A stretch of 64,000 bases of DNA from Morchella semilibera (taxonomy: Eukaryota; Ascomycota; Pezizomycetes; Pezizales; Morchellaceae), in NCBI GenBank assembly GCA_009192285.1, contig WBVU01000011.1, positions 675,348 through 739,347 on the forward strand. The letters are read 5' to 3'. Shown piece after piece: positions 25,335 through 56,809 of this stretch. Below the pieces are notes generated by a model. It was given only the letters and a program-made list of their open reading frames with translations, was not told where the DNA came from and ran no database searches. The position numbers and the translations under genes are program-made. Position 1 is the stretch's first letter; each line of letters opens with the position of its first letter.

Positions 25335-25974
25335 TATCACGGAGCGAAGCGGGGACGAGCACAAGGGGAGCCAAGGTACACAACCGAGGTAGGGCGAGAC
25401 AGGGTGGGGTACGTCATCAGCAAACTCAACTTGTGACTGGAGTCTCCCAACAGTCTCCCAAGTCTCCTGAGAGTCTCCTGAGACTCCTGGATATTTTTTG
25501 AGTCTCCTGAGGCTCAGGAGACATCAGGAGACAAATGAAGTCTTGCTGATGGTAGTACAGTATAGGGCAACTGAGAGGGTTGCTAGGCGAGAAGCGAAGC
25601 GAGGCTAAACAGGAGAACGAAACGGGGCTATGAATTTCCTTCTTCCTTCTAGGAAGTAGGAACGGGAGGGCTCAATGCTAGTAAGAGGTCCTAAGCTTTA
25701 TATTGACTAAAGGACAAGAAGGTTGCGTGAAGAAGAAAGGAAAGAAAGAGAAACCCTACAAGCGAGGGAGAAGACTCCCTATATATAGCCCCGAAATCTC
25801 TTCGCTGACTCATCCCATAGAAACCCACAGAACCTCAAGGAAATCCTTCTATTAGAAATACATACGCAACATTGACTCACATAATCCCTGCTCAGGAACT
25901 CATAGAATACCATAGAAAACCCCTGACTAATCCTTCTTTTTGCAACGTCAATAAGCACGCTCCACACCGTGATA
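25335..25974 (-). mobile_element. LTR D, reverse, interrupted by a mini-element
   Basis: TATCACGGAGCGAAGC to CACACCGTGATA on the plus strand. Without the 139-bp insertion it is 501 bp, the size of the other D solo LTRs. No clean target duplication is visible. Confidence 0.87.
25415..25551 (-). mobile_element. 137-bp mini-element in LTR D, TSD GT
   Basis: Reverse-oriented copy: CATCAGCAAACTCAAC to GTCTTGCTGATG, flanked by GT (25413-25414 and 25552-25553). It is the same length as the other three copies. Confidence 0.88.
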
Positions 25975-26364: not shown

Positions 26365-26501
26365 CATCAGCAAGACTTCATTTGTCTCCTGATGTCTCCT
26401 GAGCCTCAGGAGACTCAAAAGATCTCCAGGAGTCTCAGGAGACTCTTGGGAGACTTGGGAGACTGTTGGGAGACTGCAGTCATAAGTTGAGTTTGCTGAT
26501 G
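26365..26501 (+). mobile_element. 137-bp mini-element at the Gypsy B border, TSD TA
   Basis: CATCAGCAAGACTTCATTTG to GAGTTTGCTGATG, flanked by TA (26363-26364 and 26502-26503). It lies inside the GTTAT duplication left of the Gypsy B LTR, so it inserted after Gypsy B. Confidence 0.9.
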
Positions 26502-29064: not shown

Positions 29065-31677
29065 ATGGCAGAGGAAGAATTAAATAGAGACCACTTAGTT
29101 GTAGCCTGTAACATTGCTCACAATAAGAACTCTATTTCCACCTATGCTATGATTGATACTGGGGCCTCGGGATTCGCATTTATTGATGAAACCTTTGCGC
29201 GCCATCACCAACTTCCTCTTCTCCCCCTTAAAACACCTCATATTCTTGAGGTGATTGATGGGAGACCTATCGCATCCGGACAAATTACCTCAATATGCCG
29301 TGTACCTTTACTTATCGGCTCTCACCAGAAACAAATTCCACTTTTCGTCACTAAGTTGGGACAGTACCCTCTAGTTCATGGTATTCCTTGGCTGCAACAT
29401 TACGATGCCACTCTCAAATTTAAGAGCAATACGGTGGCCTTTGACTCGGAGTTCTGTAAAAAGAACTGCAATGCTATGACTACCCCCGATGTTATTCTCG
29501 GTATTAAACCCCCAACCTATATGATAGGCCCAGTCCCCTTTAGCCGTCTCGCCCGTCGCAAACAATTACAAATCTGCAGCATAACATTGTATGAGATTGA
29601 GAAGGCTCTTCAGGACGCTCCAAAGAATAGGTGGAAACAAAAGATCCCCAAACGCTATCACAACCGATTGAATATGTTTGATGAAGCCTTTGCCCAAGAC
29701 CTACCGCCTCGATGCCCCTACGATCATAAAACACCCCTGAAGGAAGGAAAGGAGCCTCCATTTGGTCCCCTCTATGACATGTCTAGGGACGAGTTGCTCG
29801 CACTAAGGGACTACATTCGGGAGAACCTCTCTAAGGGGTTTATCCGCGCTAGTTCATCCCCGGCTGGGGCACCAGTATTGTTTGTCAAAAAGGCTGATGG
29901 GTCCCTTCGCCTCTGCGTGTATTACCGAGGGTTAAATGAGTTGACGGTTAAGAATCAATACTCATTACCCTTAATTCGAGAAACTTTGGACCGTCTCTCT
30001 AAAGCCAAGTGGCATACTAAGCTGGATCTACAACAGGGGTACAATCAAATCCGCATGGCCGAAGGGGAGGAGTGGAAGACAGCGTTTAGGACCCGCTACG
30101 GTCACTTCGAATACACCGTGATGCCATTCGGTCTCACCAATGCTCCCGCTACCTTTCAACATTTTATCAACTATTGCCTCCGAGAACACTTAGATCAATT
30201 CTGCACTGCATATTTGGATGATACCCTTATATATAGCGATTCCCTCGAGGAACATGAACAACACGTCGAAATTATATTGGGGGTACTACAGGAGAATGGA
30301 ATTCTGCTGAAACCAGAGAAATGCGAATTTCATACCCAGAGCACTACCTATCTTGGACTGATTATTGAACCTAATGGTATTCGTATGGACCCTCAAAAGG
30401 TATCGGCGGTACAAGAATGGACCACTCCTAAGTCGGTTAAAGACGTACAAGCCTTTCTGGGTTTTGCCAATTTCTATCGCCGCTTTATTTTCGCATTCTC
30501 GAAACTTGCAGCCCCCTTGACCAAACTTACAAAAAAGGATGTTCCTTTCCTATGGACCCCGAAAGCAGAAAGAGCATTTCAATCCTTGAAAGAAGCTTTT
30601 ACCACCGCCCCTATTTTGATTCATTTCGACCCTGAAAAGCCAATCACAGTGGAGACAGACGCGTCGGACTATGTTGCCGGTGGTATACTTTCCCAATATG
30701 ATGAACAAGGGAAACTACACCCCGTGGCGTTCTTTTCCAAAAAGCATACGCCTGCGGAATGCAACTACGAAATCGATGATAAAGAATTACTGGCGATAAT
30801 TAGATGTTTCGAGGAATGGAGGCGGGAGTTGGAAGGAGCCAAACATCCCATTGAGGTTATTTCCGACCACAAAAACCTCGAATATTTTATGTCCACCAAG
30901 CAACTCAATAGGAGACAGGTACGATGGGCAGAATATTTATCGCGCTTTAATTTTATTATTAAATATAGACCGGGAAAGCAGAGTGGGAAGCTGGATGCGT
31001 TGACTAGGAGATCAGGAGATCTCCCTGAGGAAGGGGATGAAAGATTGTTGCACCAGAGTCAGACGGTTTTAAAGAAGGAAAATTTGGATCCTAAGCTAAG
31101 TTTGTTAGCGGGTTCTTTAGCAAATGAACCCGCTGAAAAGAATGCCTCCCTACAGAAATTATTTTATGAAGGATACTTAGCTGACCCATTTCCACAAAAA
31201 ATCCTGGACCTACGGCAGACGGATACAAAACACTGCAAGGAGATATCCCTAGCGGAATGCACCGAAGTGGATGGCCGCCTACTCTATCGCGGAAGTATCT
31301 ATATTCCAGATTATGCACCACTGAGGCTGGAGATTTTGAAACAATACCATGACGCCCCCTCGGCAGGACACCCTGGCAGGGAAAAAACCTTCGAATGGGT
31401 TAGCAGGGACTATTACTGGCCAAATATGCGCGATTACATCGGTCAATATATTCGGAACTGCCATATTTGCCAGCGAAGTAAGCCAACGACACATGGGAAG
31501 CTAGGAGTACTTCGACCGCTACCCATACCAGAACAACCCTGGAGAGAGATTTCTTTGGACTTTGTTACGGGTCTACCAGAGAGTGAAGGGTACGATGCTA
31601 TACTGGTGGTCGTGGATAGGTTAACGAAGATGCGCCATCTCTTGCCCTGCAATACTACTGTCAATGCGGAAGATTTA
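29065..31677 (+). pseudogene. pol: Gypsy B Pol, part 1 (protease to integrase core), interrupted by P1
   Basis: One open frame of about 870 codons. Protease MIDTGASGFAFIDETF; RT AYLDDTLIYS with CVYYRGLNELTVKNQYSL (the usual Asp before YRGLN is Tyr); RNase [19 protein letters not shown]; integrase zinc finger H..H with CHICQRSK, and the first DDE Asp in SLDFVTGLPESEGYDA. It stops being Gypsy at 31677 inside NAEDL, where P1 begins; the frame continues in part 2. No stop lies in this part. Confidence 0.95.
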
Positions 31678-31737
31678 CATCAGCAAGCTTGCAGTTGTCT
31701 CTGGGCGCATAACCCTCCGCCCTGGCGCAAAGCTGTT

Positions 31738-32300
31738 CTCCTGGCGCAAACCCCTGCGCCAGGGCGCGGACGCCAAGGCTTATCGCCTGGAGGCGCCAGG
31801 AGCCCCTGGAGATGCATCCTACCACACCACCTCCTGGCGTAACCCCCTCGCCAGGGCGGAGACTCCAAGCCTTTGCGCCTGGAGCTCCTGGAGCCCCTGG
31901 AGAGGATCCTATTTACCACCATCTCCTGGCGCAACCATCTCGCCAGGGCGGAGACGCCAAGCATTATCGCCTGGAGCCCCTGGAGCCCCTGGAGCCCCTG
32001 GAGCCCCTGGAGCCCCTGGAGAGCACCCTACCACTACCATCTCCTGGCGTAACCCTCTCGCCAGGGCGGATGCGCCAAGGCTTATCGCCTGGAGGCGCCA
32101 GGAGCCCCTGGAGATGCATCCTACCACACCATCTCCTGGCGTAACCCTCTCGCCAGGGCGGAGACACCAAGCCTTTGCGCCTGGAGCTCCTGGAGCCCCT
32201 GGAGAGGATCCTATTACCACCATCTCCTGGCGCAACCCTCTCGCCAGGGCGGAGACTCCAAGCCTTTACGCCTGGAGCGCCTGGAGCCCCTCTCCACCTG
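31738..32300. repeat. P1 left subterminal array, six ~92-bp units
   Basis: CTCCTGGCG marks unit starts at 31738, 31831, 31923, 32041, 32133 and 32224. The third unit is expanded by AGCCCCTGG 9-mers (31976-32018). Each unit holds the inverted pair CCTGGCG..CGCCAGG. GCGCCAGG words also make up the right-hand array of P1. Confidence 0.9.
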
Positions 32301-32425
32301 ATTATTCTCCCCACCCCTCTCAAGTGTACTATTGCTCTGAGAGCACCCACCAGTGCTCTGGGGGCATTCATCAGTGCTCTGAGAGCATTCATCAGTGCTT
32401 AGAAAACCAACTTCAGGCTAACTAT

Positions 32426-35372
32426 TCAGCTAAATTCATTCCATGTACGCAAATCAATCCTAGTATTTACAAGCCAGTTTCCTCCATCAACTTCGAATAG
32501 GTGAGCCATTCCCAATATGCTGCGAATATTCACTACCCATACCCTATTTCTTGAGCGTCTGGAGACTCTTGGGAGGCCATGGGGGCTATCGGGAGTCCCA
32601 GAGTCCTTTGCTTCCAAAAGCTCCACCACACACAGTCTATGGGATCGCCCTCTATTATCACGAAGCTTGATTATAGCCTCTAGCCTACCCGGAAGACGTC
32701 CTCTGAGCACTCCCCAGTGCTCTTCTGATGATACCGCAACCCAAATCCAATCGTTCCTTACTCCCCGCTTTCTGAATACTACATCTCCTGTACAGCGAAG
32801 ATGATGAAACTCATATACGTCTGGTCTTTGGAAAATGGGTATAGGCACCCGCAGACACCTGAACCTTTCCACACGGTACTCACTAATGCTCTCCCAGCTT
32901 CCGGCAAAGCTCTCAAGGCATCCCGTATCTGCTGCATATTCTCTCACAAGCCTGACCAGTGTCATTCTACTCATTCTAAGCGCATCCGCGATATCATATA
33001 GTCGTTTTGATTCTCGCGATGGATTGCAGAGCTTCCGTAATGGGAGTCGAGCATCGATAACAGGACGTTCGCTAGGTAACCTTTTCCGCTCCTCGGTCTC
33101 GAGTATCTCAAGTAACTCCCGTAGGTTGTCGTGATGTCTCCAGAGGCTTTCACCACTACCCTCCGGAGTCCCGACGATATCTTTCAGGTTCAATATTCGT
33201 ATCTCTAGTGCTAATCGTCGCCCGCCATAGTCCAGGATTTGGGTCGCCGCGTCGACCTTATTCGATGCTCTATATGCTTCTTTGATCTGGTGTATATGGG
33301 CGAGCTCGCTCATATCTGTGGAGAACATCGGAATGCTACCAAAGCGCTCCACATGCTCCCTATAATGTGATAGCAGGTGCAACTTAATGAAGTTGAAGTG
33401 CGACCTTTCACGGATCTCGTGAATCTCCCGTAGGCAGTGGTCAGTGCTCTGGGAGCCTTCAGTCTGCTGTTTCAAGGCTCTCGTCCGCTCCCTTGCATCA
33501 TTCTTCGCCCGCTTGTCAGCGCGAAACTCAAGGAAGATATCCTTGTACTTGTGGAAGTCCTTGAGATATCCCTCTAGATAGTCTAGGGTATCCCTTGTAT
33601 GACTCCCATACTGCGCCATCAAATGAAAATCTATCAATGAGCGTACACATTTTAGCGCCTTCCCAAAGTCTGCCCTCACAGCTGCGCACGGGTCCCTCAG
33701 AGCAACCGCGAGTACCCCAGGACAATCCGCCCAAGATTCCGCATCTCCTTTCCCTGCCATTGTGTCGTCGCCCTGTAAGGCTTATTTGGTACTGCAAGCC
33801 CAGGATATGGTGCAATCGACGTCCAAGCCTGGTCGAACGCGTCCAATCGATTATGCTTCTTGAGGAACGCCTGAACCCACTCCATCATGTGTTTTAATAA
33901 GCCTAGATATATGTTGTGCAGGATATCGGGCTTGTTGAGGTCGTAGGCGTTGACCCTGGGCATTATCCCAGAAAGCATTGAAGAGTGTCTTACGGACTTC
34001 GATACAAGGTATTGGACTGCTGATGTGTTTGCCGGGTTCCCCCTAAACTCCCTAACCATATCCTGATAGCTTTGATGATCGCGCTCAGGATATCGCCAGT
34101 GCTCCCAAGGCATTGGAATTCTACCTCACATCTAGGGCAGGCGTAGTTGCTGATATTTTGCAGGATGCATGCTCGGGTTGATCGGCAATCCAGCTGCATA
34201 GGACCGGGAAGCAGAGGCGTTCGTAGCCATCCGCGCAGGCCATCACCTCTCCGTCCTTGCATCTATTCAAGCTCTCGAAAATGTCATTGAGAGCTTGGTG
34301 TAGTGCTTTTGACTCTGACGGCGGAGCAGCATATTGGCATTCGCGTTTTTCCCCAGCTTTGGAGGCACCGGCAACAACCCCAGGAGAATTAGCGAGTGCC
34401 CTGAGGGCTTGCCCCGCACCGAGGAAACAATATTACCAATCGTCAAATAGACTGGCCAGGCCTTCTTGTCTCCACTAAAATTTGTCAGGTGTGTACCGTC
34501 CAACGCGCATATGATAGGAATTAAGGTAGATCCTTCCGGTAGTGTATTCTGTTTTTAGGGCATTAGCGGGTGCTCTCAGGGCATTAGCGGGTGCTCTCAG
34601 GGCATTAGGGAGTTCTCACCTGTGTCTCCCACCACCAGTCTGCCGTATGCATTTCTCCATACATCCTTTCCCCTGACTCGTTATATTCCATCACCGGCGC
34701 GTACACTAAGCAATTCCTGAATGCCCGCTGGCCAAGAAGGAATCGCACAATTGTTAACGGGTCGCGGTAGTAGTACGGGACCATTTGCCCCCCTATTTCA
34801 ACCTCAGAATGTCGCCAGCTCGATTTTCCCAGATAATCATTCATTTCGTCCAACCTTCGCATAAAGCCCCGGCCAGTGCTATAGGAGCACTGCCCATTGC
34901 TTACTGGGGCATGAAGAAAGAAACTGTCGATGTTGCTTTGCGATGCCTTGGATAGTATGAAGTAGCGCGCAATCCGAAATTCGTATGCTGAGTTGAAGGG
35001 GTGCCACGGGTCCTCAAGAAGGCTCTCGGAGCACTGGGCATACTCCTTAGAGACGAACAAGCCCTCCCCCGCACCTTCATAAATAGTTGTTGCGCAACCT
35101 CTCCCCTCATTGTCCTCCGAATCCTGCATGAAAGAGGGTTCGGATTCGAGATCCGAGTCGGCTTGCCCTCCGCAGTAGTTGCTTCCGTTTTCTGGGTCAT
35201 CAGCACTATCTTGGGAGTCGTCGGGACTGGTTAACTGGCTCTCGAGCTCAAAGAAATTTGACTGTTCTATGAACCATTCATCCGCCTTGCTGGGGTGCGC
35301 AGAACGGAGATGCTTATCAAAACCTGCTGAAGTGCTATAACATTTGGTGCAGAAAGGACACATAGACTTCAT
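32426..35372 (-). pseudogene. P1 Plavaka-type transposase, frameshifted
   Basis: The gene reads from ATG 35372 with a C2H2 finger (MKSMCPFCTKCYSTSAGFDK..H). Exon 1 (35372-34620) ends in the family block MHTADWWWETQ. A 71-nt intron (34619-34549) follows. Exon 2 opens with LPEGSTLIPIICALDGTHL and SGDKKAWPVYLTIGNI, diagnostic of Plavaka transposases. Later blocks are ACADGYERLCFPVLCSWIAD, the C-x2-C pair YACPRCEVEF, KPDILHNIYLGLLKHMMEW, ATTQWQGKEMRNLGRIVLG, PMFSTDMSELAHIHQIKEAY and a C-terminus ending in LRTWNEF. At least four frame changes (about 34330, 34180-34260, 34060-34110, 33700-33760) break the DDE-type catalytic region, so this copy looks inactive unless some are sequencing errors. Confidence 0.88.
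34549..34619 (-). other. Transposase intron filled with P1 palindromes
   Basis: The 71-nt intron (GTGAG..CAG on the minus strand) consists almost entirely of the repeated word GGGCATTAGCGGGTGCTCTC. The P1-specific palindrome therefore sits inside a spliced region. Confidence 0.7.
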
Positions 35373-35878
35373 CGCGCAGTGAATGCTCTGGAGGCAGTCG
35401 GGAGTGCTCTAGTGGCAGTCGTTAGTGCTCATGAGGTGGAGTTTTTACCTTACCCCTGCAGCTATCCCTGCCGCCAAGACATTGATAGTTTGTTTGCCTC
35501 CCACAGACTTCCAGATATCAAAAACATCACATCAGCGTACCAGCAAACACTATTGCAAACAATGCCTTCTCTGAAAGCACCCGCCACTGCCCTAGGGGCA
35601 CTCCAGACCGTCTTAGGGGCATTCCCGACTGCCCTAGGAGCATTCGGCACTGCTTGCAGGCAATGGCGAAACCCGTAGAGCTCAATTGGACCCTGGGGCT
35701 ATGAAGATACTCCAGCATGAATCGGCAGCGCCAGGAAACCAACGACACAGTGCAGAAGCCGCTAATGACATCATATGTTGGATATCGCATATTGGGCGAG
35801 GGTCTGGGAGGTAGGTGCCCCCAAAGCACCCGGGAGTGCTCCTAGAGCATCAAACTGGAGCCGAATCCGCACCTCTAC
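35373..35878. promoter_or_regulatory. P1 divergent intergenic region, transposase side
   Basis: It contains several P1 palindromes (35380-35430, 35575-35655, 35815-35845), for example GCCCTAGGGGCACTCC. It carries no convincing gene and separates the transposase start from the tandem array. Confidence 0.5.
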
Positions 35879-36041
35879 CACTACTCACCTCCAAATCACC
35901 ACTTTCAAATCACCGCTTTCAATTCATCGCTTCCGATTCACCGCTTTCAATTCATCGCTTTCGATTCACCGCTTTCAAGTCATCGCTTTCGATTTCAAGT
36001 CATCGCTTTCGATTCACTACTTTCAATTCACGGCTTTCAAC
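35879..36041. repeat. P1 ~15-bp tandem array between divergent genes
   Basis: About ten units of the pattern TTCRATTCACCGCTTTC and variants. It lies between the two divergent start regions, a plausible place for a binding-site array controlling both genes. Confidence 0.8.
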
Positions 36042-36681
36042 TCATACCAACCAAGATGGAGTTTACTTCCATAAATAAGGTCCAGTCCCCCAATTCTATA
36101 AGCATCTCATCATACTCATAGCTATCTCGTATTAGGGAACTCCCAGCAACCATCAAAGCACCACCGGCAATCCTCGGAGCACTGGTAGTAACCCCAAGGA
36201 CAGCAACAGCCATAAACGCAAGGACATATACGACGTACCTTCATCCAGCGACGGAAACTGCTCCTATCCTACACCAACCAAGAAGGCTGGGCCCCACGCC
36301 AAGAGAAAGAAGATATCAGGCGTTCCAAGGTCGAGGCCTAGGCTAATTAGTCCTGAACTTCCCCATCCAAATATAGCAGCTGAGAGTGAAGTTGAAGAGA
36401 CCCAACCGTCCGAGAGTTCAGATTCTGAGTTATCAAGCCTAAGTCCCCTGAGCAGCTCTGATTCAGAACCTGTCTCCTCCGCCCAGAAAGCAATCGCCCG
36501 GAAAGCAGCCGCCCGGAAAGCTACCGCCAGTACCCAGAAAACCACCGCCAGTACCCAGAAAGCAACCACCAGTACCCAGAAAGCAACCTCCCGGAAAGCA
36601 ACCTCCAGTGCCCAGAAAGCAACCGCCAGTACCCAGAAAGCAAACCTCAGTGCCCCCCAACGCATATCAAAAAGGTCCAGA

Positions 36682-37803
36682 ATGAGCCGCCTTGCACAGA
36701 AGTCTAAAACCACCTTGGGCCTAGCCGGTACGAGCAAGGTCTATACTACTCTCCGCAACGACCTCACCGCGCTCATGATAGCCACAGGCTGGGTGAACAA
36801 GACCAAGTCTGGTATGGTCCAATTCAACCAGTTATGCAGCTGGCTTATAGCCACCGAGTTTTTGAAACACCTTGCCCCTATATGGAGGGGTGAAGAAGGC
36901 CCTGCTAAGAAAGACCTGTCGGATGCCCTGAAGTGGCTCATCAGTGACGTTGGAACCAAGGAGAGGCGGTCTAGAGGCAATGGCATGCGCGAGTTTAGGG
37001 CCAGGCATGGCAATACCGACGAGCCTCCGGAGGAAGGGGCATCATCACAGTCCCAAGGACAATCGCGGGTGCCCCTGGAGCAATCCCGACCCAGCATTAC
37101 GGTAACCGTGGCAGACCCTGATTTTTATGGAGGCCACCACCCCAGTGTAACGCCTGAATACTTCTGGGACGACGAGGGCAATGAGCCTAACTTCGCGGGG
37201 ATCATGACCGAACCCACCTTCAATGAGCTTTGCAGGGTAATACTAAAGCATACCCCAGCGGGTAGGGTTATCAGGTCTATCCAGGGAGCAATGGAGGATG
37301 CCCCTGAAGGGCAGGCCCCGAGGAGCGTCCAGATCACCGACAGCGAGGAGGTTGAGTGTTGGTTGCAAGACACCAAGGCTAGACCCCGCAGGATACTGGC
37401 CATTCTCCACAGGGCAGGCACGGCTGGCGTCGATGGTCTAGAGACCCCACCCGCTCGCAGGTCTTTTCCCCACATACAGGAGGAGGACTACACTCTCGTC
37501 GACCTGCCGGCAGAAGATACCGAGTTCGATCCAAATGTCAGGGTCACAGCCACCGGGCGCAGGATACAGTTGCCCCGTAGCGACATAGGTTTCCAGAAAG
37601 TCCTCCACGAGCTCATAGTACGTCGGGATAGGCAGCAGGGCGGCATCGACCACCTTACGCCACTATACCTTCGGAAGTTCCCCTTAGGAGTTGGCCCGGA
37701 CGACCCGGATTTCCTAGTTGGGAAGATCTGGACTCCCGCCGAGATAGCAGAACGGAGAGCAGCTAAGGAAAAGGCTAATGCGGATACTACTGAGGCAAGC
37801 TAA
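36682..37803 (+). CDS. P1 accessory protein, function unknown
   Basis: The open frame from ATG 36682 encodes 373 aa. The same frame is open upstream to about 36136 and reads an acidic Ser-rich stretch (ESSDSELSSLSPLSSSDSE) and Lys/Ala/Thr repeats (ATASTQKATSSAQK), as do P0 and P2 in this position. The true start is therefore probably upstream, perhaps a short exon at 36056 spliced to 36134. Blocks shared with P0, P2 and P3: GWVNKTKSGMVQFNQLC (residues 36-52), EVECWLQDTKARPRRILA (223-240) with ILHR, and EEDYTLVDLP (267-276). No catalytic motif recognised. It is adjacent to and divergent from the transposase in every copy, so it may be a second transposition protein. Confidence 0.75.
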   Translation: MSRLAQKSKTTLGLAGTSKVYTTLRNDLTALMIATGWVNKTKSGMVQFNQLCSWLIATEFLKHLAPIWRGEEGPAKKDLSDALKWLISDVGTKERRSRGNGMREFRARHGNTDEPPEEGASSQSQGQSRVPLEQSRPSITVTVADPDFYGGHHPSVTPEYFWDDEGNEPNFAGIMTEPTFNELCRVILKHTPAGRVIRSIQGAMEDAPEGQAPRSVQITDSEEVECWLQDTKARPRRILAILHRAGTAGVDGLETPPARRSFPHIQEEDYTLVDLPAEDTEFDPNVRVTATGRRIQLPRSDIGFQKVLHELIVRRDRQQGGIDHLTPLYLRKFPLGVGPDDPDFLVGKIWTPAEIAERRAAKEKANADTTEAS

Positions 37804-38354
37804 AGATTGTTAAGTTTCCTACTATATTTATTGATGCTTTGTTGATCCGTTCTCTGCTCCAAGGGCAGTCGGGGCTGCTCGGAGAGCAGTCGCCACTGCC
37901 TACAGGGCATTCGTATTTGTTGTTAAGAAGTTTTGTCGCCCCGCTATCCTTCCCGGAGGCTTTGTTTTGTTTCATGTTAGCATTATCATCTAGGCAAGCA
38001 ATAAATTTGTTTTTGCACTCCAGAATCAATGCCCCCAGGGCAGTCGCGAGTGCTCCCGAGTCAGTGATTCACAGTGCTCCCAGGTCAGTGAACAGTGCTC
38101 CCTGGGCAGTGAGAAGTGCTCGGGGCAGTGAACAGTGCTCCCGGGGCAGTGAGGAGTGCTCCAGGGGTAGTGAGCAGTGCCCCCAATGAGATGAAGTGAA
38201 CTTCCGAGTGATAGTATGTGACGATGCGCTAATTCCATATTAGGCTAGGCGTGGAAAATTTTCACGCCAAGAAAATAGTCTACTAACCCCGCACTCCTTT
38301 CAGGGGCACAGCTCTGCCCTGTAAGCACTCGTCAACACCCTCCGGATAATCAAG
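37804..38354. repeat. Palindrome cluster between accessory gene and third gene
   Basis: Dense P1 palindrome copies occur at 37855-37910 and 38028-38190, with units such as CAGTGAACAGTGCTCCC repeated about every 20 bp. A GGAAAATTTTC palindrome is at 38251-38261. No ORF is convincing. Confidence 0.7.
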
Positions 38355-40870
38355 ATGCCCCCTAGCAGCAAGCCGCCTCTTCCCACTGCTAGTGGAGGGG
38401 ATCCCAATGCGAATCATAAACGACCTAGGACCCTCCCTACTACTGGTGGAGTCTTAAATGAATCAGATCGTATCACCGAATTGAATGATGACGGTTCAAC
38501 CACAGACTTCGATGATATACCGGAGGTGCCACTGATGGCGCCGCCACCGGTGCCTCCACCAGTGCCTTCACCTCCCAAAGGTGCTCTGCGTAGTGGTTTG
38601 CGTAGTCGTGACAGACAGGTATTATTCAACATTCCGGAGGAAGATCAAGGGAATGCAGGGTCGGATATCGAGGACCAGGAGGAAATCCCCCCCTCAGAGC
38701 ACTCTTCTGAGGACGATACCAACTATTCACAGACTCCACAATCAACCCGGACATCAAGAAGTCAAGTGGGCGGTAAGAGGCCCCCATCAGCACTGGCTAC
38801 CACTGCCAGCGCACCGGCAACTACGCGAAGAAAGCCAACGGCAGCGGTAATGGAGGCAATTGCCTCATCGGATGTTGAATTGTCTGTGGTTCAGGTATAG
38901 TAGCCATTCCTTCAAGCTGCCTCTTGCTAACTGATAAGTGGGTGGGGACGCAGAAAGGAAACCGTCCGGCGGCTAAACCTATGAGAAACCGGGAACGAGG
39001 ATCTGGACGGGCTCCGGATTCAGTACACAGAGCGGCAGAAACATCCGCGAGTGCCCCGAGGGCAGTGGGCAGAGCGGCAGAAACATCCGCGAGTGCCCCG
39101 AGAGCAGTGGGCAGAGCGGCAGAAACATCCGCGAGTGCCCCGAGAGCAGTGGGGAGTGCATCATGGGACGCCGCTGCTGCACATAGAGCACTAACTACTT
39201 CTTTTTACGAGCCGGACTCTGAATATACGCCCCCCACGCGCCAACCCGCGGGTGCCTCGAGAGCGGTGGGGAGTGCATCACGGGACGCCGCTGCTGCTGC
39301 ACAGAGAGCACTAACTACTTCTTTTTATGAGCCGGACTCTGAAAATACGCCCCCCATACGCCAATCCAGGAGTGCCTCTAGAGCAATGGGGAGTGCCACA
39401 CGGGATATCGTGCCACGAAGATCACTTACCTATGAGCCGGACCCTCAATGTTCGTCCCCAAACCAACCATATGATGAATGTCGGAATGAGAGTACGGAAT
39501 CAGGTTATCAGCAGTGGTCTAGAGAAGAGGAGCAACCACCACCATCATCAGGGCAACCACCATCATCAGGGCAGCCACCTCTGCCCGGATATGAATCTCC
39601 ACCTGCCTCTGGGTATATTGACGAGAGCTCTCAGGACATTCCCTCCCAGGTTCGTCGTAGCAGTAACTCGAGGAGCGTAAGCACACTCCCGGTGCAGGCT
39701 CAGCGAGTCGAACGAGAATGCAGTGTCCTAATCGGCGAACATACTCTACTCCAGGAACCCTTTCCGAACCCTGCGAGGCTCTCGTCTCTGGTGGTGAATA
39801 TGTGGAGCAAGGCTAGTCGTATTGTAGGTTGCACGCCAGAACTTGACGAGGCTATAATTAAGCAAGTGAGTACACCAGGGGCATTCCTCAGTGCCCTGAG
39901 GGCACTGCCCAATGCTTTGAGGACACTACTAAGATGAAATAGGTCAGGAGCGTCCACTCCCGTGTCCGCTCACATTTGATGAGCGAGGTCAAAAGCCGGA
40001 TCGCCGACGGAACCATTTATGGGTTTTCAAAATTCGCGATGTCAGATGGAAGAGCGGCGCGCGTGAATTTTCTCCTGCAAGGTGACCGTTTCATTAGCCA
40101 TCCAGACCACTATGAGGTACGTTTTTGCCCATAGAGCATTCGGGATGCCCAGAGGGCATTCGGGAGTGCCCAGAGAGCTTTGAGGAGTGCGCTGACAACC
40201 TTAGACACATCGCTGCCGGTTTCTGGCACCAGAGATCGTGGACATTCTTTATTTCAAATTCTTCGACGGTATCAGGATGCGGGGGGTTAGAGACCCTGAG
40301 TTTTTAGAGCGGATAACACCTACTCTGATTTGTCTGATATCTACGGCGATCTGGCATGGAATTCGCGCCTGGTCGACGGGGTGGTATGTGAGACCAGAGC
40401 ACTTTCAATCTCAGAACGAGACAGTCGTGAGTAAGTAGTGCCCTAGTGCCATGAGGGCATTCACGAGTGCTGATGGTACTAGAAACATTCACGAGGATGA
40501 TGAATACATGGAGGGCTCGTAGTAGAGCGAACCAGGAGGCTGTTTTGGAGTTGATCAAGGAGAATCTTCGAGATAAGGTAAGCAACTAGCCATAGTACAG
40601 CAAGCCACCTGACTAACCTCAGTTTCAGATACGGGAAGTGAAGGGGTAATCCTGGAGGTTATACCCGTAGAGGGTTGAATGAAGATGATGATGCACTTGC
40701 CGCCGATCTGGCAGCATTCCGGAAGGCTCGGAAAACAATCAGGGTAGCGCCCAGGCCCGTGGAGTCCTTGGATGACGGCGAAGACGATGATTCGGTGATC
40801 GACGCTCGACTCAGAGGCGTAGACCTCGGCTCTACCGTGGAGACGATCTTGGAGGAAGATGAAGGGTGAT
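38355..40870 (+). CDS. P1 third gene, DUF6532-like multi-exon protein
   Basis: Exons inferred: 38355-38896, about 38936-39865, about 39950-40116, about 40202-40431, about 40489-40578, with a tail to 40870 (frame of tail uncertain). The N-terminus is disordered (Pro, Ser, acidic). Repeats ASAPRAVGRAAET at 39045-39150 come from the P1 palindrome itself. The folded part reads HSRVRSHLMSEVKSRIADGT, YGFSKFAMSD, FLLQGDRFISHPDHYE, VDILYFKFFDGIRMRGVRDP and TAIWHGIRAWSTGWYV. This order resembles DUF6532 proteins of fungi. P3 carries a homologous gene, so it is part of the element, not a random capture. Introns 2-4 carry P1 palindromes. Function unknown. Confidence 0.65.
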
Positions 40871-41086
40871 CTGCGCGCGATAGGCAATTACCTGTGGTGA
40901 TACGGGTACTATTATTAGTTCATATCTATCTTTAGCTGGATTTAGTAGTATAGTAGTATGAGATATCAATAAACACAGCTTCGGGAGTGCCCTGGGAGCA
41001 TTCCCGACTGCCATGAGAGCACTGGCGACTACCTTTAGAGCACTAGCGAATCGCCAGGCGCATACACCAGGACAGAATAGGGGGTG

Positions 41087-41350
41087 CCAGGAGATAATAT
41101 AGTGCCCCAGGAGATAGTAGAGTGCGCCAGGAGATATTATAGTGCCCCAGGAGATAGTAGAGTGCGCCAGGAGATAGTAGAGTGCCCCAGGGGATAGTAG
41201 AGAGCGCCAGGAGATATTATAGTGCCCCAGGAGATAGTAGAGTGCGCCAGGAGATAGCAGAGTGCCCCAGGGGATAGTAGAGAGCGCCAGGGGATGATAG
41301 TGTGCGCCAGGAGATGATAGTGTGCGCCAGGAGATGATAGTGTGCGCCGG
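41087..41350. repeat. P1 right subterminal array, ~20-bp units
   Basis: About thirteen units of AGAGTGCSCCAGGAGATAGT. SCGCCAGG words match those of the left array. The unit spacing is close to two helical turns. Confidence 0.88.
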
Positions 41351-41489
41351 GCGGCGCCAGGCGCTGGTGGCGGAAACCGGTCCCCCTGGCGGAGCACTCC
41401 TTTCCTGGAGACGCGGTCTGTGTTTCCAACGCCTGGAGCGCCAGGGACGCCAGGCGCGTCAGGCGGAGACATGTGAGTTTGCTGATGTA

Positions 41490-42548
41490 GCCGATTTATA
41501 TTTGCAACATGTTTGGAAGCTACACGGCCTGCCTACACATATCACGTCCGATAGGGGAACTCAATTTACTGCGAATTTTTGGAAATTCCTCTGTAAGCAG
41601 TTGAAGGTGGAAGCCAGAATATCAACAGCCTTCCATCCGGAGACAGATGGGCAAACAGAGCGACTGAATGCAGTGATGAAGCAATACCTCCGAGGGTATG
41701 TGTCGTACCAACAAGACGATTGGGTTAAGTGGTTGCCGATGGCAGAATTCGCAGCAAATAACCAAGTATCAGCCTCTACCAAAGCTATTCCATTCTTTGC
41801 CAATTATGGCTACCATCCTCGATTCACAATGGACTTACGGAAATTGGAGAAGACTCCACTGAGCCTCGATGCCTACGACTTTGCAAGCAAGATGAAGGAG
41901 CTACATGATTATTTACGAACCTAACTTAGGACCGCTCAAGACCAACAAGAGAAGTCAGTTAACATGAAGCGTACTCCCGCCCCACGGTATGAAGTCGGTG
42001 ATATGGTGTTAGTTTCAGCAAAGAATATTCAAACTTTGCGAAATTCTAGGAAGCTCGATTGGAAAGATTGGGACCTTTCCCCGTCCAAGAGGTTGTCTCG
42101 CCCTATGCTTATTGATTTAACCTACCTGGTTCGATGAAGATGCATCCCGTCTTCCATGTTTCCCTGTTGGACCTTGCTGCCATCGACCCTGTACCAGGGC
42201 AGATACAACCACCACCCCCGCTTGTTATTGTGATCAGGAGGAGGGTTATGAGTCGAAGAAGTTTTGGATTCGAGGTATCATGGAAAGCAGGGACTTCAGT
42301 ATTATGTGAAGTGGACGGGGTATGCTGACCCTACATGGGAACCTGCCGATTACCATCAACAGACTGCTACTATCGATAATTTTCATGTGCGCTATCCTAC
42401 TAAACCAGGACCAGGGGAAATCAAGGTTCGCAGGAGCTCGCGCTTGAGCGGGGGGGCTACTTTCATGGACACGCTAGGCTCGGAGTACTGGAGGGATTGG
42501 CAAGGTTGGGATTACTGTAAGCTAGGAGGCGGGGATGAGTCAGAATAG
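41490..42548 (+). pseudogene. pol: Gypsy B Pol, part 2 (integrase core and chromodomain)
   Basis: Continues [25 protein letters not shown] and HPETDGQTERLNAVMKQY. A TAA at 41922-41924 and frameshifts near 42065-42260 follow. The chromodomain [20 protein letters not shown] is at about 42295-42355. The frame ends inside the 3' LTR. Confidence 0.92.
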
Positions 42549-46756: not shown

Positions 46757-46950
46757 CATCAGCAAGATTCAAACTCTCTCCAAGAGGCTTGACTGGGTCT
46801 CCGGAGGCCGTTGCAAGGCAATTACCCTTCCGTCTCTCCTAATAACCTCAGTAACCATTTGTTGCCTCCCGAGCCTCCTGATGGCCTCCCGAGCCTTCTA
46901 GAGAGCCTCCTGAGCCTTCTGTTACCCCCCTTACCTCTCTTGACACCTCG

Positions 46951-47968
46951 TGTTACGGGCATGAGGAAAGAAACCTGAAGACTGGAAGAGGAGGACCCTC
47001 CCCACGCTACTATACCGCTAAAAGTCTCTACGTCCTACTGGGCGCGCCAGAGAGGCACGGTGTTGCCAGTATGGAGCCCAGTGCGGAGTTGCGGAATCCC
47101 TAGTTAACAAACCTGTTTTCGACCCCTGAAATAACCCCCGGAGTGTCAAAGCGCCGGCACAGTCGCTCAGGACACCGGTGGGTATATGAGGGGGCAACAG
47201 TGCGAGTTTGGAGTCCAATCGGACCATATTTGATCGAATGGCGAAGGTCGTAAGGAAGCTCACACTGGTGGCGCCTCTGGGAAGGTAAGACTACCCGACT
47301 CCTCCGGTACCGATCGTTAGCAGTCCTAATGTTGAGCTATGCTCCTTGGTGATAGGTAACGATGTCGGGAAAGAGTTGGCGAGCGGAGTCGAGCCCGGTA
47401 CCGGGATGTTATCAGGTAGGCTAATTTCGAAGACTCCTCATGACCACTAGTGAAGGCTAGGTGCATGCAGCGACGGGTTGTTATTTATTAAGGGAATAGA
47501 GCGTGAGGGATTTTCGGGGATTAGGAGTCAGGGGTGTGTTAGATGGTGGGAATAGATTTGGAGTTTGGTTGTCTTGGCTTATTTTCAGGGTCTTCGGGGT
47601 TCCGCACTTGTTGTTTGTATTCATAATGTTTAGTCCGCGTGACATTGGCGCGGGATATAAATACTGTGTCATTCTCCGACTTTGTTGAAATCATCAGCGA
47701 CGAAGAAAGAGTCTTATCGATATAATAACTATTACTTTTACGCTTTATACTTTATCTTCGAGACTTTACCAAGTGACCTGGAAACTCCACCTCGAACCAT
47801 CTTCGTACTTCAGGACCATTTGCATACTGAGAGGACTAGCATTGAGCGATCGAGATTCTAGGCTGGTTAAGACTGAGAAGACCTTGTTCCTTACTGCCTT
47901 TGCGGTTAGCGTTTCAAACTCTAAGCTCTTTACTTGACTACTCGGGTGCTTGGCGTAACACCCTAATA
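46951..47968 (+). mobile_element. Solo LTR1 (1,018 bp) in P2, TSD CCTCG
   Basis: TGTTACGGGC to CACCCTAATA, flanked by CCTCG at 46946-46950 and 47969-47973. P0 near 11243-11262 has the matching sequence with one CCTCG and no insert, confirming the boundaries. Confidence 0.93.
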
Positions 47969-47973
47969 CCTCG

Positions 47974-48351
47974 CTAATTGTATGTAGCCTCCTGAGCCTT
48001 CGGTTACCCTCCTTACCTCTCCTGACACCTCGCTAAGTGTTTCTCGCCTCCCGAGCCTTCCAGAGGCCTTCCGAGCTTTGATTAGTAAGTTTCGGAGGCC
48101 ACCATCAACAATCTATTTTAACGCAAAAATTATATACAGCTCTTGATGGCTACCCCGCCGCCCGGGAGCTTCTGGCCCTCTGCGCCTTTATAAGGGGTTC
48201 TGGAGCCCTCATGAGTCCCCGATCTAGATCATATTGTTTTCGTTTACTATCATGTTAATTTTATTCTAAATACATTCTATGCCAGCTGAAGTCACTCGAG
48301 CCTTTATGAAGGCCTCTTGTACCTTTCCCCAGGCCACCAGAGACATTGTCA
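47974..48351. repeat. P2 left subterminal region
   Basis: GCCTCC/GAGCCTTC words and inverted arms recur (GAGCCTTCCAGAGGCCTTCC near 48053). Below the transposase stop it is AT-rich. No gene seen. Confidence 0.6.
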
Positions 48352-51251
48352 CTATATATCGAATTCATTCCACGTTCTCAAATCTATCCTCGTGTTCACA
48401 AGCGATTGATCCTGTCCCAGCTCGAACAAATGAGCCATTCCCAAAACACTACTGATATTAACTACCCAAAACCTTTGCCGAGAGCGCCTCGCAACTCTAA
48501 GAAGACTGTGTGAGCCGTTTGGAAGACCCCTATCCTTGGCTTCCAGTAGCTCTACAAGACAAAGCTGATATGTTTTCGTCGATATACTGTCACCTATCTT
48601 GAATATTGCTCGTACAAGCCCTGGTAGGCGTCCCTGAAAGGCTCCCCATGGCTCCGTTGTGGCCACCTTAATCCATGCCCAATCATTTCGAGTCGACCTT
48701 TTCCTAAATAATGCCTCTCCCGTACACCGTATATTGTGTATCTCGTAACTGTCAGGCTTCTGAAAAATTGATACTGGCACCTGTAGGCACTTAAAGCACC
48801 CCACCGGGCACTCCAGAAGGCTCAATAAGCCTTGTTCTCCCCGGCTCAAGCCCTGACCATATTCCGACGCCGCTCTTGCTAGTGTTCTTCTATTGATTTT
48901 AATCATATCGGCGATATCAGATAATATGTGGGGTCCACCGTCGGGGGTCAACATCCTAGGTTCCGGGTGTTTATCATCGTCTAGGAATGTTTCGTTTGTC
49001 CTTTGTGGGTCCTCGTTTTTGAATACTTCCAACATGCCCCGGAGGCTCTCTCGATGGCTTGGGAGGCCCTCGTAATGTTCTGGAAGACTGACAACGATAT
49101 CTTTTAGATTTAAGACCCGTATCTCTATAGCCATACGCCTTGAGTGGTAGCCGAGAATTCTGAACTGTTGCGTCGACCTTATTGGAGGCTGCATAAGCCA
49201 TCTTAATTTGTTGCCTATGAGCTAACTCGCTCACATCGGTTGAAAACATTGGAATATTACCAAATCACTCTACATGCCCCCGGAAGTGTGAAAGAAGATG
49301 CATTTTAATGAAGTTGAAATGAGAAGCCTCGCGAATTTCCTCAAGCTCCGCCAGGCCTCTGTCAATGCTTCCCGAGCCTTGCAGCGCCTTTGTTCGATCC
49401 TTTGCCTCTTTCCTTGTTCGTTTATCGGCTCTAAATTCCAGAAACACATCCTTATACTTGTGGAAATCTTCGAGATACCCTTGAAAGATAGTCTAGTGTT
49501 TCTTTTGTATGCGTAGTGTACTGTGCCATCAAGTGGAAATCGATTAGTGACCGAACACACCTCAAGGATCTCCCGAAGTCGCTCTGCGAAGCTTTTGGGG
49601 GGTTCCAAAGAGCCACTGCAAAGGCTCCTAGAACTATCCGGCCGAGATGACGCATTTCTTTACCTTGCCATTGAGTAGTTGCCCAATAAGCCTTATTTGG
49701 TACAGCAAGCCCTGGGTAAGGCTTAATGGACGCCCAAGCCCGATCAAAATTCTCTAGCCGATTGTGTTTTTTCAAAAACGATTGAATCCATTCCATCATA
49801 TGTTTCAATAGGCCGAGATAAATATTATGCAACATATCTGGCTTGTGAAGATCATACACCTGAGCCTTCGGCAAGGCCCACAAAGCATTGTACAGAGTTT
49901 TGAAGGATTTCGACACTAGGTATTCAACGGGTGCTGTATCTGACGTATCCTCCTTATAACGCTCTACCATTTCAATATATCGCTCCTGAATGCGTGGCGG
50001 GTTTTCTTGAAGGCTCCCTAGGCCCTTGAAATCAACTTCGTACCTAGGGCAGGCCTGATTGTTGAGGTTTAGCAGCGAGGCGTGTTCTGGTTGATCCGCA
50101 ATCCATGCACATAGTATCGGATAACATAGGCGCACATAGCCATCAGCGCATGTTATAAGCTCACCCCTTTCCGCAGGGCCCTGAAGGCCTTCGAGAACCT
50201 CAGAGAGGACCTGGTGAAGGACCATCTGGCTCTCCCAACGGCGTTTGTTCGTACGCACTCCAACCTTTGGTGGCACTGGCAGTAGAGCTAGGAGTATGAT
50301 CGCGTAATTAGAGGGTTTATTTCCTGTGTCCGAGGTGATATTGCCAATCGTTAGGTATACTGGCCAGCCTTCTTGTCACCACTGAAATTAGTGGAGGTTG
50401 TGTTCCGTCTGATGCACATATTACTGGCACCACCGTTGATCCTTTCTGGAAGGGTATTCTATACATTTGTGAGGGGTTAGCGGAGGCTCCCTGAGCCTTC
50501 TAAGTAAGTGTTGCGAACCTGCATCTCCCACCACCAGTCTGCCGTGTGCATCTCCCCATACATCTGCTCCCCCATTTCATTGTATTCCATAATAGGTGAA
50601 TACACCAAGGACTCCCTAAATGCACGTTGTCCCAGAAGAAAAACGCACTATATTCATAGGGTCCCTGTAGTAGTAAGGATTTTCTGCCCGCCCATTTCGA
50701 CCTCTGAGTGTATCCAACTCTCTTTTCCTAACCCCCCCATAGACGACATCTCGTCGAGGAGGCGTGCGAAGCCTCTACCAGTGCTGTAGGAGCCTTGTAG
50801 AGGGCGTACGGTGCGGAAGAAATCGTCTATTTGACCCTGAGATACATTCGATTGTAGGAACCAGCGCGATAACCGAAATTCCTCTGCTGATTCGAAAGGC
50901 TGCCATGGGTTGATCAAAAGGCTTTCCGAGCCTTCATCATATCCCGTTGCGGTGAAAAGAGGCTCCCTGCACCCTCGTATATGGTAGTTGCTAGATTAAA
51001 CCGCGTGAATCCCAAAGTATGATCATCATTCGATTCAGTATCGGATTCGCTTTCGTCTGGTATGTTCAAATGTCCACCCTCATGGGGACCTCCTGAGCCT
51101 TCGGGAAGGCTCCGCGAGCCCTCAACGGGAGTCCCTGAAAGCTGCCTGTCGTACCACCCGCGGGTCCGCGATGGGTGGACTTTTGGAGATGTCGATCGAA
51201 ACTACCAGCATTGGCGTAGCTCCGTATGCAAAATGAACATCGTGATCTCAT
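48352..51251 (-). pseudogene. P2 Plavaka-type transposase, multiply frameshifted
   Basis: ATG at 51251 gives the C2H2 finger CSFCIRSYANAGSFDRHLQK. Blocks shared with P1: LLINPWQPFESAEEFRLSRW, QSNVSQGQIDDFF (50860), GELITCADGYVRLCYPILCA, ACPRYEVDFKGLGS, KPDMLHNIYLGLLKHMMEWI, ATTQWQGKEMRHLGRIVLGA, FSTDVSELAHRQQIKMAY, and the end LRTWNEF. Frameshifts occur near 51180, 50650, 50300-50400, 49480, 49250 and 49170. The second Cys of the C-x2-C pair is Tyr (CPRY). Inactive. Confidence 0.88.
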
Positions 51252-51259
51252 TGCTGATA

Positions 51260-51720
51260 GTCAATATTGGTGGAGGCTTCGGAGGCTCTGGAGGCTTTGG
51301 AGACTCTGGAGCCCCTGGGGGCTTCCTAAGCTTCCTAGGCTTGGGAGGCTTCAGGGAGGTTGGCACTCTAAATGGGCCCGTGCACCGATAGATCATATCT
51401 TATCGCACTAACGTTCTGATCACAATATTCGAGTGACATCATATGATTCAATATGATGTTCAATTGTTACTCCAATATATGACGTAGTGAAGTTTGATCG
51501 AAGATACCCCGCGTTCTCCTATTCTCCTACTTCTATCCCTATCCATCCCTAGGATCGATACACTGGCTCAAGCTTACTACACTATCTCCAAGTCTCTGGA
51601 AGCCTTCAAGAGTTTATAATACACGATATAAGATGGTATCTTATCCTCTCTATTGCTCTATATTCAAGCAATTGACATATATACAGGAGGCTTTTTTTTC
51701 CTCTTTCTATAAGTCGCCAT
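51260..51720. promoter_or_regulatory. P2 divergent intergenic region
   Basis: Matches 10210-10780 of P0 but without the mini-element. It has TTCGGAGGCTCTGGAGGC tandem words (51270-51350) and a CATATGATTCAATATGATG palindromic stretch (51439-51457). Confidence 0.45.
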
Positions 51721-51729
51721 CCAAACCGC

Positions 51730-53089
51730 ACCCCTAACCAAACACCCCCGACAACACCCCGGCAAGCCCTAAACAAGGCCAAAAACGAAGCCGCATATCC
51801 TCCCATAGTGATAAAAACGCATCCAAAAAACAGGAGGTCGGACCATTAATCCCCGGCAGTACATTGATAGTGAGAGCTCGGGCTCCAGCCTTAGTTCAGC
51901 CTCTAGCAGTAGTGTTGCATCCTACATAGAGATCGAGTCAGAGGAAGAGATACCCTGGAGCACCCAGAAGGGAAAGTCGAAAACATCTGAGGAGCCTCCG
52001 AAAAGCCCCGTTCTACGCCCTCCCAGGATCTGAGCCTTCAGGATCCGGGCCTTCAGGATCCAGGGCTCCCAAGGGCTTATCGGTGGCCCCTGGCGCCCCC
52101 CCAATGACACCTACCCATAAGACTCGACGTTCCCTACCCCCAGGTTAGACCCACAAGTCAGGAAGCGGGTCCAAAAGACCAAGGAGGCCCCTGAAATGGC
52201 ACCACGATACAAACAGCCCGCCAAGTACATTTTGCCAGACCACATACGACTGCCGGAGAATCTTGCACTTAGATAAAGATGGTATCTATAAGGCTCTACG
52301 CAAAGAGCTCGCCGATGAGATGACAAGGACAGGGTGGGTGAATAAATCCAGCTCGGGCGATTCTTCATTCAATCATTTGTGCGAATATGCCATGGGATCA
52401 CAAGGCCCTCACGAATTTGAAGCCCAAGTGGTTAGAAAAGGCTTCAGAGGACTCTATAAAAGATCCAAGCAGCCCTAGCCCATCTCATTGTAGATCTATT
52501 ACAGAAGAGGAAAAGGATAGACAAACGACATGACGAAGCTTTGGAAGTGCAGTGGATAACAAGAGATATTACAAGATGGTACTCAAGTCCTGGGAGAAAT
52601 TTAGGAATACCTTCCAGGCCCCGCAATAACCGTACATGTTATTGACCCAGAGAAGGCTACTGCCATCCCAAGCGATACGTACCGTCCATACGACTGGTAT
52701 GGGATTGCGTCGCTTACGCCATTTACCGGCATTCTCGAAGTGGTGTCTATGTATGATTTAGCAGCCCTCAGCGCTGAAGCGAGTCCCACTGGCCGCTCCA
52801 GGGGGCCCTAATAGGGCTGTTCGAGCCTTCCATGGGGGCGATGTCCAATTTGGCACCCCGGGGGCAGGCAGCTTATCCCCCAGATCCGGAATATGTGCCG
52901 ATCGGAGACGATCAAGAGCTGGAAGGTTGGCTCAGGGCACAGAGGCAAAACCCTTAAAGGCTTTGTGCGGTGCTTCATAGGCCTTCGGCAATCGTAGCTG
53001 GGCCTACCCAAAGGCCCCAAACGCCTTTACCAGAGGGATGGGATTACCTGACTGAGGACGATATTAATGATATAGAGCTTTTGGATTAG
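51730..53089 (+). pseudogene. P2 accessory gene, degenerate
   Basis: Collinear with the P0 accessory gene. An acidic Ser-rich N-terminal stretch (SSLSSASSSSVASYIEIE near 51890) is followed by MAPRYKQPAKY from ATG 52196, then NKSSSGDSSFNHLCEYAM, AALAHLIVD, and the tail LTEDDINDIELLD ending at 53089. Frameshifts and stops break it in at least four places. Confidence 0.68.
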
Positions 53090-53369
53090 GAACTTGAAGG
53101 TTTGAATATACCCTATCCATGAACTTATCGGGGTGGGCATTATGGAATGCTCTTCCTGAATGGCATTTATATGAATCTTATTATTCTGACTGAAACCACC
53201 TGTAGGTGCAGAGGATAAAACCAGCGACGACGGTGATAGGCTCCCAAACATCTGTAGGCAGTTTAGAAGGCTTGAGGAGCCTTCATTTGGGAATTGGAGT
53301 TTTTTGTTTTTGCACATACAGTTCTTAATTTTAGCCCGGTTACCTCTTTAGGTCTTAGCAATAATTATA

Positions 53370-53890
53370 TGATTTATCTTTTGTCTCCTGTGATCCCTGC
53401 CAATCTCCTGGGCTCTCCGGAGGGCTCGCCAAGCCCTCCTGATATCTCCGGAGACTGCTGATGATTAAGCGAAACCTCCCAAGTTCTCCTGTGTGATTCC
53501 GGAGACTGCTGATGATTAAGCGAAACCTCCCAAGCTCTCTGTGATCCCTGCAATCTCCTGGGCTCTCCTGAGGGCTCGCCAAGCCCTCCTGATATCTCCG
53601 GAGACTGCTGATGATTCAACGAAACCTCCCAAGCTCTCCTGTGATCCCTGTCAATCTCCTGGCTCTTCTGAGGGCTCGCCAAGCCCTCCTGATATCTCCG
53701 GAGACTGCTGATAATTAAGCGAAACCTCCCAAGCTCTCCTGTAATCCCTGCCAATCTCCTGGGCTCTCCTGAGGGTTTCCCAAGCCCTCCTGATATCTCC
53801 GGAGACTCTTGAAGATTAAGCCAGATCTCCCATACTCTCCTGTAATCTCTGCCTATTTCCTGGGCTCTCCCAATATCTCCGAGGACTTTC
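53370..53890. repeat. P3 left subterminal array
   Basis: Units of roughly 90-110 bp with CTCCTGATATCTCCGGAGAC, GAAACCTCCCAAGCTCTCCT and CCTGCCAATCTCCTGGGCTC, about five copies. The array at 58190-58560 is the same sequence inverted. Each unit carries GCTGATGATTAAGCG, which includes the core of the terminal inverted repeat. Confidence 0.88.
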
Positions 53891-54052
53891 AAACTATTAC
53901 TAATCTACTGATACCTCAAAATCCACTTTGATTATTCATACCATACATAAAAATAGGAGTCCTCCCCCAAAATCACATCTCCACCGTCGAGGCGGGAGGA
54001 GGCTCTTGAAATGCCTCTCCCGCCTTCGCCATGCCCACGTCCCCCAAATCAC

Positions 54053-56800: not shown

Positions 56801-56809
56801 AGGCATTTG

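Follow-up and report, generated by a model that had tools for sequence, protein, structure and literature searches.

A Plavaka-type DNA transposon of the morel Morchella semilibera with two further genes and a dispersed palindromic motif

When a fungal DNA transposon encloses genes in addition to that for its transposase, do these belong to the element or merely lie within it, and what might they do for it? The question is raised by an element at positions 31678-41487 of a 64,000-nucleotide stretch of the Morchella semilibera genome (assembly GCA_009192285.1, contig WBVU01000011.1, positions 675,348 to 739,347), the whole of which is hereafter called the window (G000:C10:675348-739347; the genome comprises 56.8 Mb in 23 contigs, with the contig of the window labelled C10). 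A preliminary description, made from the letters of this stretch, had presented it as a complete 9.8-kb Plavaka-type transposon carrying two genes beside the transposase. We denote the transposase gene P, the adjacent accessory gene A and the third gene, coding for a DUF6532 protein, D; their coordinates and those of the other features are collected in Table 1.

That P, A and D all belong to the element is supported by how these sequences are distributed across the genome. Searches with matches at the level of exons returned at least 80 matches to the window A, at least 128 to the Pfam Plavaka profile and 51 to DUF6532, while queries from a sister family, B, returned at least 106 for A, at least 77 for P and 69 for D. 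The A and P figures are lower bounds because scoring covered a fraction of the candidates (78 of 175 for the window A, 123 of 153 for Pfam Plavaka, 96 of 196 for the family-B A and 73 of 169 for the family-B P). Merging yields at least 84 A, at least 77 P and 69 D loci, and one or more of the other two genes lies within 10 kb at 78 of the 84 A, 64 of the 69 D and 66 of the 77 P loci found; both lie within that distance at 50, 43 and 41 of them, respectively. With contigs C9, C13 and C22 left out, as they look like haplotype twins, P occurs within 10 kb of A at 58 of 74 loci as against a mean of 3.5 and a maximum of 12 in 200 circular shifts, and within 10 kb of D at 43 of 60 loci as against a mean of 2.7 and a maximum of 10 in the same number of shifts. 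The arrangement is likewise regular when neighbours no more than 8 kb apart are compared. Taking A as reference, the closest P is upstream on the other strand in 54 of 60 cases, and the closest D follows downstream with the orientation of A in 55 of 60; relative to D, the closest P is upstream on the other strand in 33 of 42. The prevailing order of the cassette is transposase (reverse)-A-D. The earlier claim that all three are genes of the element is thus borne out by the partnered A and D loci. Its companion statement, that their relative order is always the same, holds as the prevailing genome-wide pattern but fails in a second copy within the window (46757-58863), in which D and a second A are reversed.

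The opposite pattern, namely A and D lying mostly elsewhere or full-length copies lacking them, was looked for in whole elements of family B. Pairing its ends at distances of up to 30 kb gives 25 pairs. Five are short, at 152-1,097 bp; the other 20 span 3.7-28 kb, and in 13 of these long elements P, A and D follow one another as expected. Two copies, on C7 and C2, are flanked by TA duplications at different sites and, over the parts that were searched, match at 100% identity in P (598 residues), in the second A (437) and in D (158), from which it follows that the cassette moved recently as one unit. The rearranged copy in the window (C10:722104-734210), which reads P reverse, A forward and then D and a second A reverse, has the same ends as these recently moved copies. 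A further copy, on C1, contains two tandem A paralogues, both open. Outside the element, the window has pieces of A at 8353-9117, 52212-52811 and 56446-57744 and a piece of D at 54425-54847.

The ends of the element, together with its transposase, indicate the group to which it might be assigned. TTTA precedes the terminal CATCAGCAA, and the right end, TTGCTGATG, is followed by TAGCC. The insertion lies within the integrase portion of a Ty3-type element, the left flank of which has 40 matches in the genome (counting the window and its C9 twin); in all four of these copies that were fetched, a single TA spans the empty site, with 36-40 of 40 bases matching on the left and 54-57 of 60 on the right. 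By eye, the host integrase frame is restored across the empty site. The perfect ends, the TA duplication and the restored frame had each been noted in the preliminary description, and the empty sites agree with it. Its word "complete" applies to the borders and not to the genes, the transposase of this copy being spread over several frames and the last exon of D ending early. A 2-bp duplication matches in 10 of 15 end pairs examined (TA, GA, GT, TT and TG; C9 twin counted); the target-site duplication is 2 bp of any sequence and not specific to TA. The PlavakaB elements as published have termini CATCA..TGATG and target duplications of 2 or 3 bp (Kojima 2025, PMC12730594, in the parts of that account consulted), and both properties are found here, the former in CATCAGCAA..TTGCTGATG and the latter in the ten end pairs and the four empty sites. 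Three pieces of P exceed the Pfam Plavaka (PF18759) cut-off of 26.3 bits, with 78.9, 59.6 and 38.4 bits (E 5e-22, 4e-16 and 1e-9), and a fourth falls below it (22.3 bits, E 9e-5). Judged by its ends and this domain, the element fits the PlavakaB group of DNA transposons. No TET/JBP domain, the mark of the TET-bearing PlavakaB elements, was detected in the 8 open frames run against Pfam, of 42 listed as overlapping the region, and there was no Rfam match at the gathering threshold within 31600-41600.

End pairs of the window's own family were found on C10, C9 and C2. The contig pairs C9/C10, C12/C13 and C21/C22 agree in gene content and, closely, in gene coordinates, which might mean that in part of the assembly both haplotypes or nuclei are represented; the window insertion is present on both C9 and C10, and the two are one event in two haplotypes.

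P bears the blocks quoted in the preliminary description, including WWWETQ, and is a Plavaka transposase by the scores above. Past its first intron the window copy runs through several frames, and long open frames occur in the family-B copy on C1 and in a copy on C17, the family-B P scoring 184.7 bits against PF18759. In that family-B P, a CPRC and histidines were noticed by eye with the pattern of DDE residues, C(2)C and H(3-4)H in mind. D, which the preliminary description had likened to DUF6532, gives upon splicing a nearly end-to-end match to PF20149 (profile 8-193 of 194; 67.9 bits against a cut-off of 24, E 1.4e-18) and is a member of that family; in the family-B copy it likewise has six exons, with splice sites read by eye, and a full-length DUF6532. 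With the family-B D as query, one homologue was found, a protein of M. sextelata. To our knowledge, DUF6532 is an unexplained fungal protein family with no known function. Together with Plavaka it is listed among the domains restricted to the parasitic or symbiotic fungi of one comparison (PMC8955403, in the part consulted).

A had been described as a protein without a recognizable family, and indeed the window protein has no Pfam match above cut-off. The nearest profile, Tri-helical PF24465, scores 16.4 bits against a cut-off of 27, which places A outside that family, and weak matches to the same profile recur in 7 of 12 members of the A family (E up to 0.1, the best 2.5e-4). Homologue searches, in each of which the 8000 candidates sharing most words were scored, found 2 proteins with the window protein as query and 7 with a profile, of which 5 are from M. 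importuna or M. snyderi; the closest homologue of A, at 96% identity, is not among these five, and neither search, within those 8000 candidates, returned a named homologue from outside Morchella. The profile and structure comparisons proposed in the preliminary description were carried out, with the outcome that a search of solved structures by sequence profile gave a single chance hit (E 0.8) and the predicted models are of low confidence, because of which no claim of a fold is made for A. A ubiquitin-like strand order was an impression by eye and is not used. Directly upstream of A, at 35892-36044, lies a 14-bp tandem repeat, CAATTCACCGCTTT, in about 10 copies.

In two related families, purifying selection on A is shown by the ratio of nonsynonymous to synonymous divergence (dN/dS), which is 0.24-0.41 in ten pairs with dS of 0.18-0.58. 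The ten were drawn from the two B paralogues and from the S family, whose elements include that at C1:2878603 onward; pairs with saturated dS were unused, and one row in a wrong frame with 12 stops (L010a) was left out. The window A could be compared with a single relative, for which the ratio is 0.34 and dS, at 1.49, is near saturation. The identity matrices of P and A correlate among the ten elements for which both genes were fetched (Mantel r 0.97, p 0.012), modest evidence that the two descend in parallel, as the ten elements fall into three groups only. A further family, C, was left out of this test because tblastn found nothing at its A-like gene.

The most interesting feature of the element is one absent from the preliminary description, namely a 21-bp palindromic motif dispersed along it. 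With at most one mismatch to its core, AGTGCYCTNRGRGCA, there are 31 matches in the window, all within 32331-41023, where 0.23 would be expected; with at most two, 43 lie in the element (44 by another merging rule) against 2, the chance level, in the remaining 54,190 bases. Shuffling the element 200 times gave at most 3 sites. Non-coding DNA holds 28 of the sites (9.2 per kb) and coding DNA 15 (2.2 per kb), the former being divided among the P-A region (6), the A-D region (8), the P intron (2), three of the five D introns (6) and the two ends (3 each). The commonest spacing of neighbours is 21 bp, exactly so in 8 cases, and by eye the tail repeats of A (36512-36643) and D (39028-39153), which are disordered regions, are the 21-bp unit read in frame. 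The motif pattern was chosen after inspecting the element, because of which the discovery itself was repeated on shuffled sequence: for the window element, B, two S elements and C, refinement found 33, 24, 12, 15 and 9 sites, and nearly the same procedure (8 rounds instead of 15, with the top three words as seeds) on 12 shuffles each found 4-7, 5-7, 4-6, 4-6 and 4-6, respectively. The S motif is related to that of the window (none of 500 permutations reaches the score), with differing outer letters in both arms. Palindromy as strong as observed arose in none of 300 trials for the window motif and in 3 and 1 of 300 for the two S elements. The window, in which a B copy is present, has 19 matches to the B motif outside the element.

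Parallels for such an organization might be sought in two better-known systems, the CACTA/En-Spm elements with TNPD plus TNPA, in which the motifs are subterminal and the TNPA of maize shares a gene with the transposase, and the VANDAL elements of Arabidopsis, with a transposase that is Mutator-like and of another superfamily than Plavaka. The former resemble the present element in their subterminal repeats and belong to a related transposase clade (PMC12730594), and TNPA, a fast-diverging second protein, is needed for transposition and binds short repeated motifs (PMC2613891); here, in contrast, the palindrome is distributed along the entire element, and A and D are genes of their own. VANDAL elements share with it a transposase accompanied by two more genes and a short motif, specific to the family, that is concentrated in tandem repeats of non-coding DNA, and their VANC proteins bind that motif and remove silencing (PMC5735166). 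They differ in that anti-silencing has been demonstrated for them, whereas for the morel element it would be argued by analogy, and in that the motif here also occurs in coding parts. Among Plavaka elements, the giant repeats of Amoebidium similarly place the transposase beside further genes, but in clusters of up to 50 kb with many genes coding for tyrosine recombinases and with a different cassette (PMC11244446). PlavakaB itself shares with it the Plavaka transposase, CATCA..TGATG termini, 2-bp duplications and, in some members, an extra gene; the extra gene there is a TET/JBP dioxygenase, while here it is A and DUF6532, which the consulted parts of that account were not found to mention, and the published Plavaka families were reconstructed from Agaricomycotina whereas the genome here is that of a morel, a member of the Pezizomycetes (PMC12730594). 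The preliminary description could put no name from the literature to such a three-gene element, and the literature searched on Plavaka, DUF6532/PF20149, KDZ/Zisupton/Kyakuja and Morchella transposons gave no account of a P-A-D cassette.

Taken together, the element is likely to be a PlavakaB-type cut-and-paste transposon built as a three-gene unit, P with a divergent A followed by D, whose motif would be bound by a protein of its own. P would pair and cut the CATCAGCAA ends, helped by the subterminal repeats. A, D or the zinc finger of P might bind the 21-bp palindrome and thereby coat the element in the manner of TNPA or VANC; a dimeric binder coded by the element is the natural guess because this second, internal motif is palindromic. 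By analogy with those systems, the coating could aid transposition, regulate the divergent promoter or keep the element unsilenced.

Several observations weigh against this account. Seven of the 20 long family-B elements lack the three genes in order, one of them being largely masked; the exceptions include a 3.7-kb remnant with P only, one with P and A without D, one with D only, one with two A and D without P, and two haplotype twins, one of them the B copy of the window, with D and an A inverted. Five of the 15 end pairs, among them that of the window family on C2, have no matching 2-bp duplication. Six very close pairs of A, with few changes, give dN/dS of 0.41-1.18 and are little informative. 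Both AlphaFold predictions for A (of its conserved part and its C-terminal block) are poor, with predicted local distance difference test (pLDDT) scores of 37.5 and 58.7, and comparison of the second with solved structures gave nothing better than E 2.5. As for the motif, those of B and C are not significantly related to that of the window (73 and 134 of 500 permutations), the palindromy of the B motif is marginal (11/300), the C motif is not palindromic (54/300) and, with its 9 sites, is weak, and in an S element 8 of 12 sites fall in open frames of at least 250 codons, unlike VANC targets.

A more specific version of the coating idea would make A and D strict anti-silencing factors, one of them attaching to the motif of its family and either removing DNA methylation or blocking it, in the way VANC acts on VANDAL elements. 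The three-gene layout would suit such a role, as would the concentration of the motif in introns and intergenic DNA and its 21-bp tandem units; the VANC motif is similarly family-specific and dense in non-coding tandem repeats (PMC5735166), and the related mushroom elements carry a TET/JBP dioxygenase (PMC12730594), again going by the consulted parts of these papers. The location of the S-family sites, mostly in open frames, speaks against it, and we regard this version, an argument by analogy, as doubtful. It might be broadened into a scenario in which fungal Plavaka elements independently evolved self-protection: A, possibly with D, would read a family-specific palindrome of about 21 bp multiplied along the element, and protein and motif would change together such that each family protects itself, in convergence with the VANC system of plants. 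This too is an analogy that we put forward tentatively and consider rather unlikely.

Equally doubtful is that the motif is a mere minisatellite, expanding by slippage inside each element without any protein bound to it. The many sites in tandem arrays, with the exact 21-bp spacings noted above, and the coding location of 15 of the 43 would be in keeping with slippage, but the sites are scattered over 8.7 kb, through introns of both P and D and both intergenic regions, and the S motif has retained its palindromic core in spite of the altered outer letters of both arms.

Gene capture by DNA transposons is common, and a DUF6532 protein, with no function that we know of, might be taken for a captured one. 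That A and D are passengers captured once by an ancestral Plavaka element and of no function to it is, even with the precedent of Plavaka transposases flanking gene clusters in Amoebidium (PMC11244446, seen in part), improbable in view of the low dN/dS of A between subfamilies, the open A of recent copies and open spliced D frame of the C1 copy, the nearly constant order and strand, and the two open tandem A paralogues of family B.

The ends of the element recur well beyond the copies with genes. CATCAGCAA is counted 1369+1326 times in the genome as against 163+184 for the reversed pattern, and the window has four 137-bp miniature inverted-repeat transposable elements with CATCAGCAA ends (10637-10773, 25415-25551, 26365-26501 and 57950-58086), all four with a 2-bp duplication (TT, GT, TA and TC). 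They may belong to a large non-autonomous family that depends on Plavaka transposases, and as a guess such 137-bp elements make up much of the genome-wide count. On C1, the family-B copy adjoins at its right end what looks like a 137-bp element lacking its first nine bases (L071 537-673), as if the two had fused, and this copy has no matching duplication. The left flanks of the C7 and C2 copies share eight bases, GGAATCTA, just outside the end (L072 164-171; L075 reverse strand) and otherwise differ; chance, a target preference or a longer terminus are all possibilities. A more distant family is represented at C17:135700-144102 (L078 / L040), where the transposase has at least 1,012 codons in a single open frame and is separated from a DUF6532 gene by one with weak similarity to A. 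For family C the A-like gene is weakly supported, with an hhalign probability of 10% and E 0.003 over one block of 55 columns.

Table 1. Features of the element, in positions of the window
Feature	Position	Strand	Remark
Left TA target-site duplication	31676..31677	.	Empty site in 4/4 fetched Ty3 copies
Left terminal inverted repeat, CATCAGCAA	31678..31686	+	Sequence read
Left subterminal repeats, CCTGGAG / GCGCCAGG cores, units ~91 bp and longer	31738..32291	.	
About 43 dispersed 21-bp palindromic motif sites, core AGTGCYCTNRGRGCA, <=2 mismatches	32331..41044	.	
P exon 2 region, Plavaka domain, several frames in the window copy	32438..34548	-	Limits approximate
P exon 1, weak C2H2 zinc-finger match (below cut-off), start of Plavaka domain (WWWETQ)	34620..35372	-	Splice site by eye
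Divergent region between P and A, 6 copies of the 21-bp motif	35373..36057	.	
Possible first exon of A, inferred	36058..36081	+	Read by eye
A, 555-codon open frame: low-complexity tail, weak Tri-helical match (residues 191-276), second conserved block (~320-426)	36136..37803	+	
D, DUF6532, six exons: 38355-38894, 38954-39865, 39943-40116, 40205-40430, 40483-40577, 40629-40869	38355..40869	+	Splice sites by eye
Right subterminal repeats, 20-bp period	41086..41348	.	
Right terminal inverted repeat, inverse of CATCAGCAA	41479..41487	-	Sequence read
Right TA target-site duplication	41488..41489	.	

Two extra genes, A and one for DUF6532, travel with a Plavaka transposase in dozens of copies. The tie to a transposon gives DUF6532 its first biological context. 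Moreover, as one genome contains several families, each having A proteins and a motif to itself, the co-evolution of a protein with its binding site becomes testable within a single organism. If it is true that A or D reads the motif, these elements of the morel would extend VANC-like systems beyond plants.

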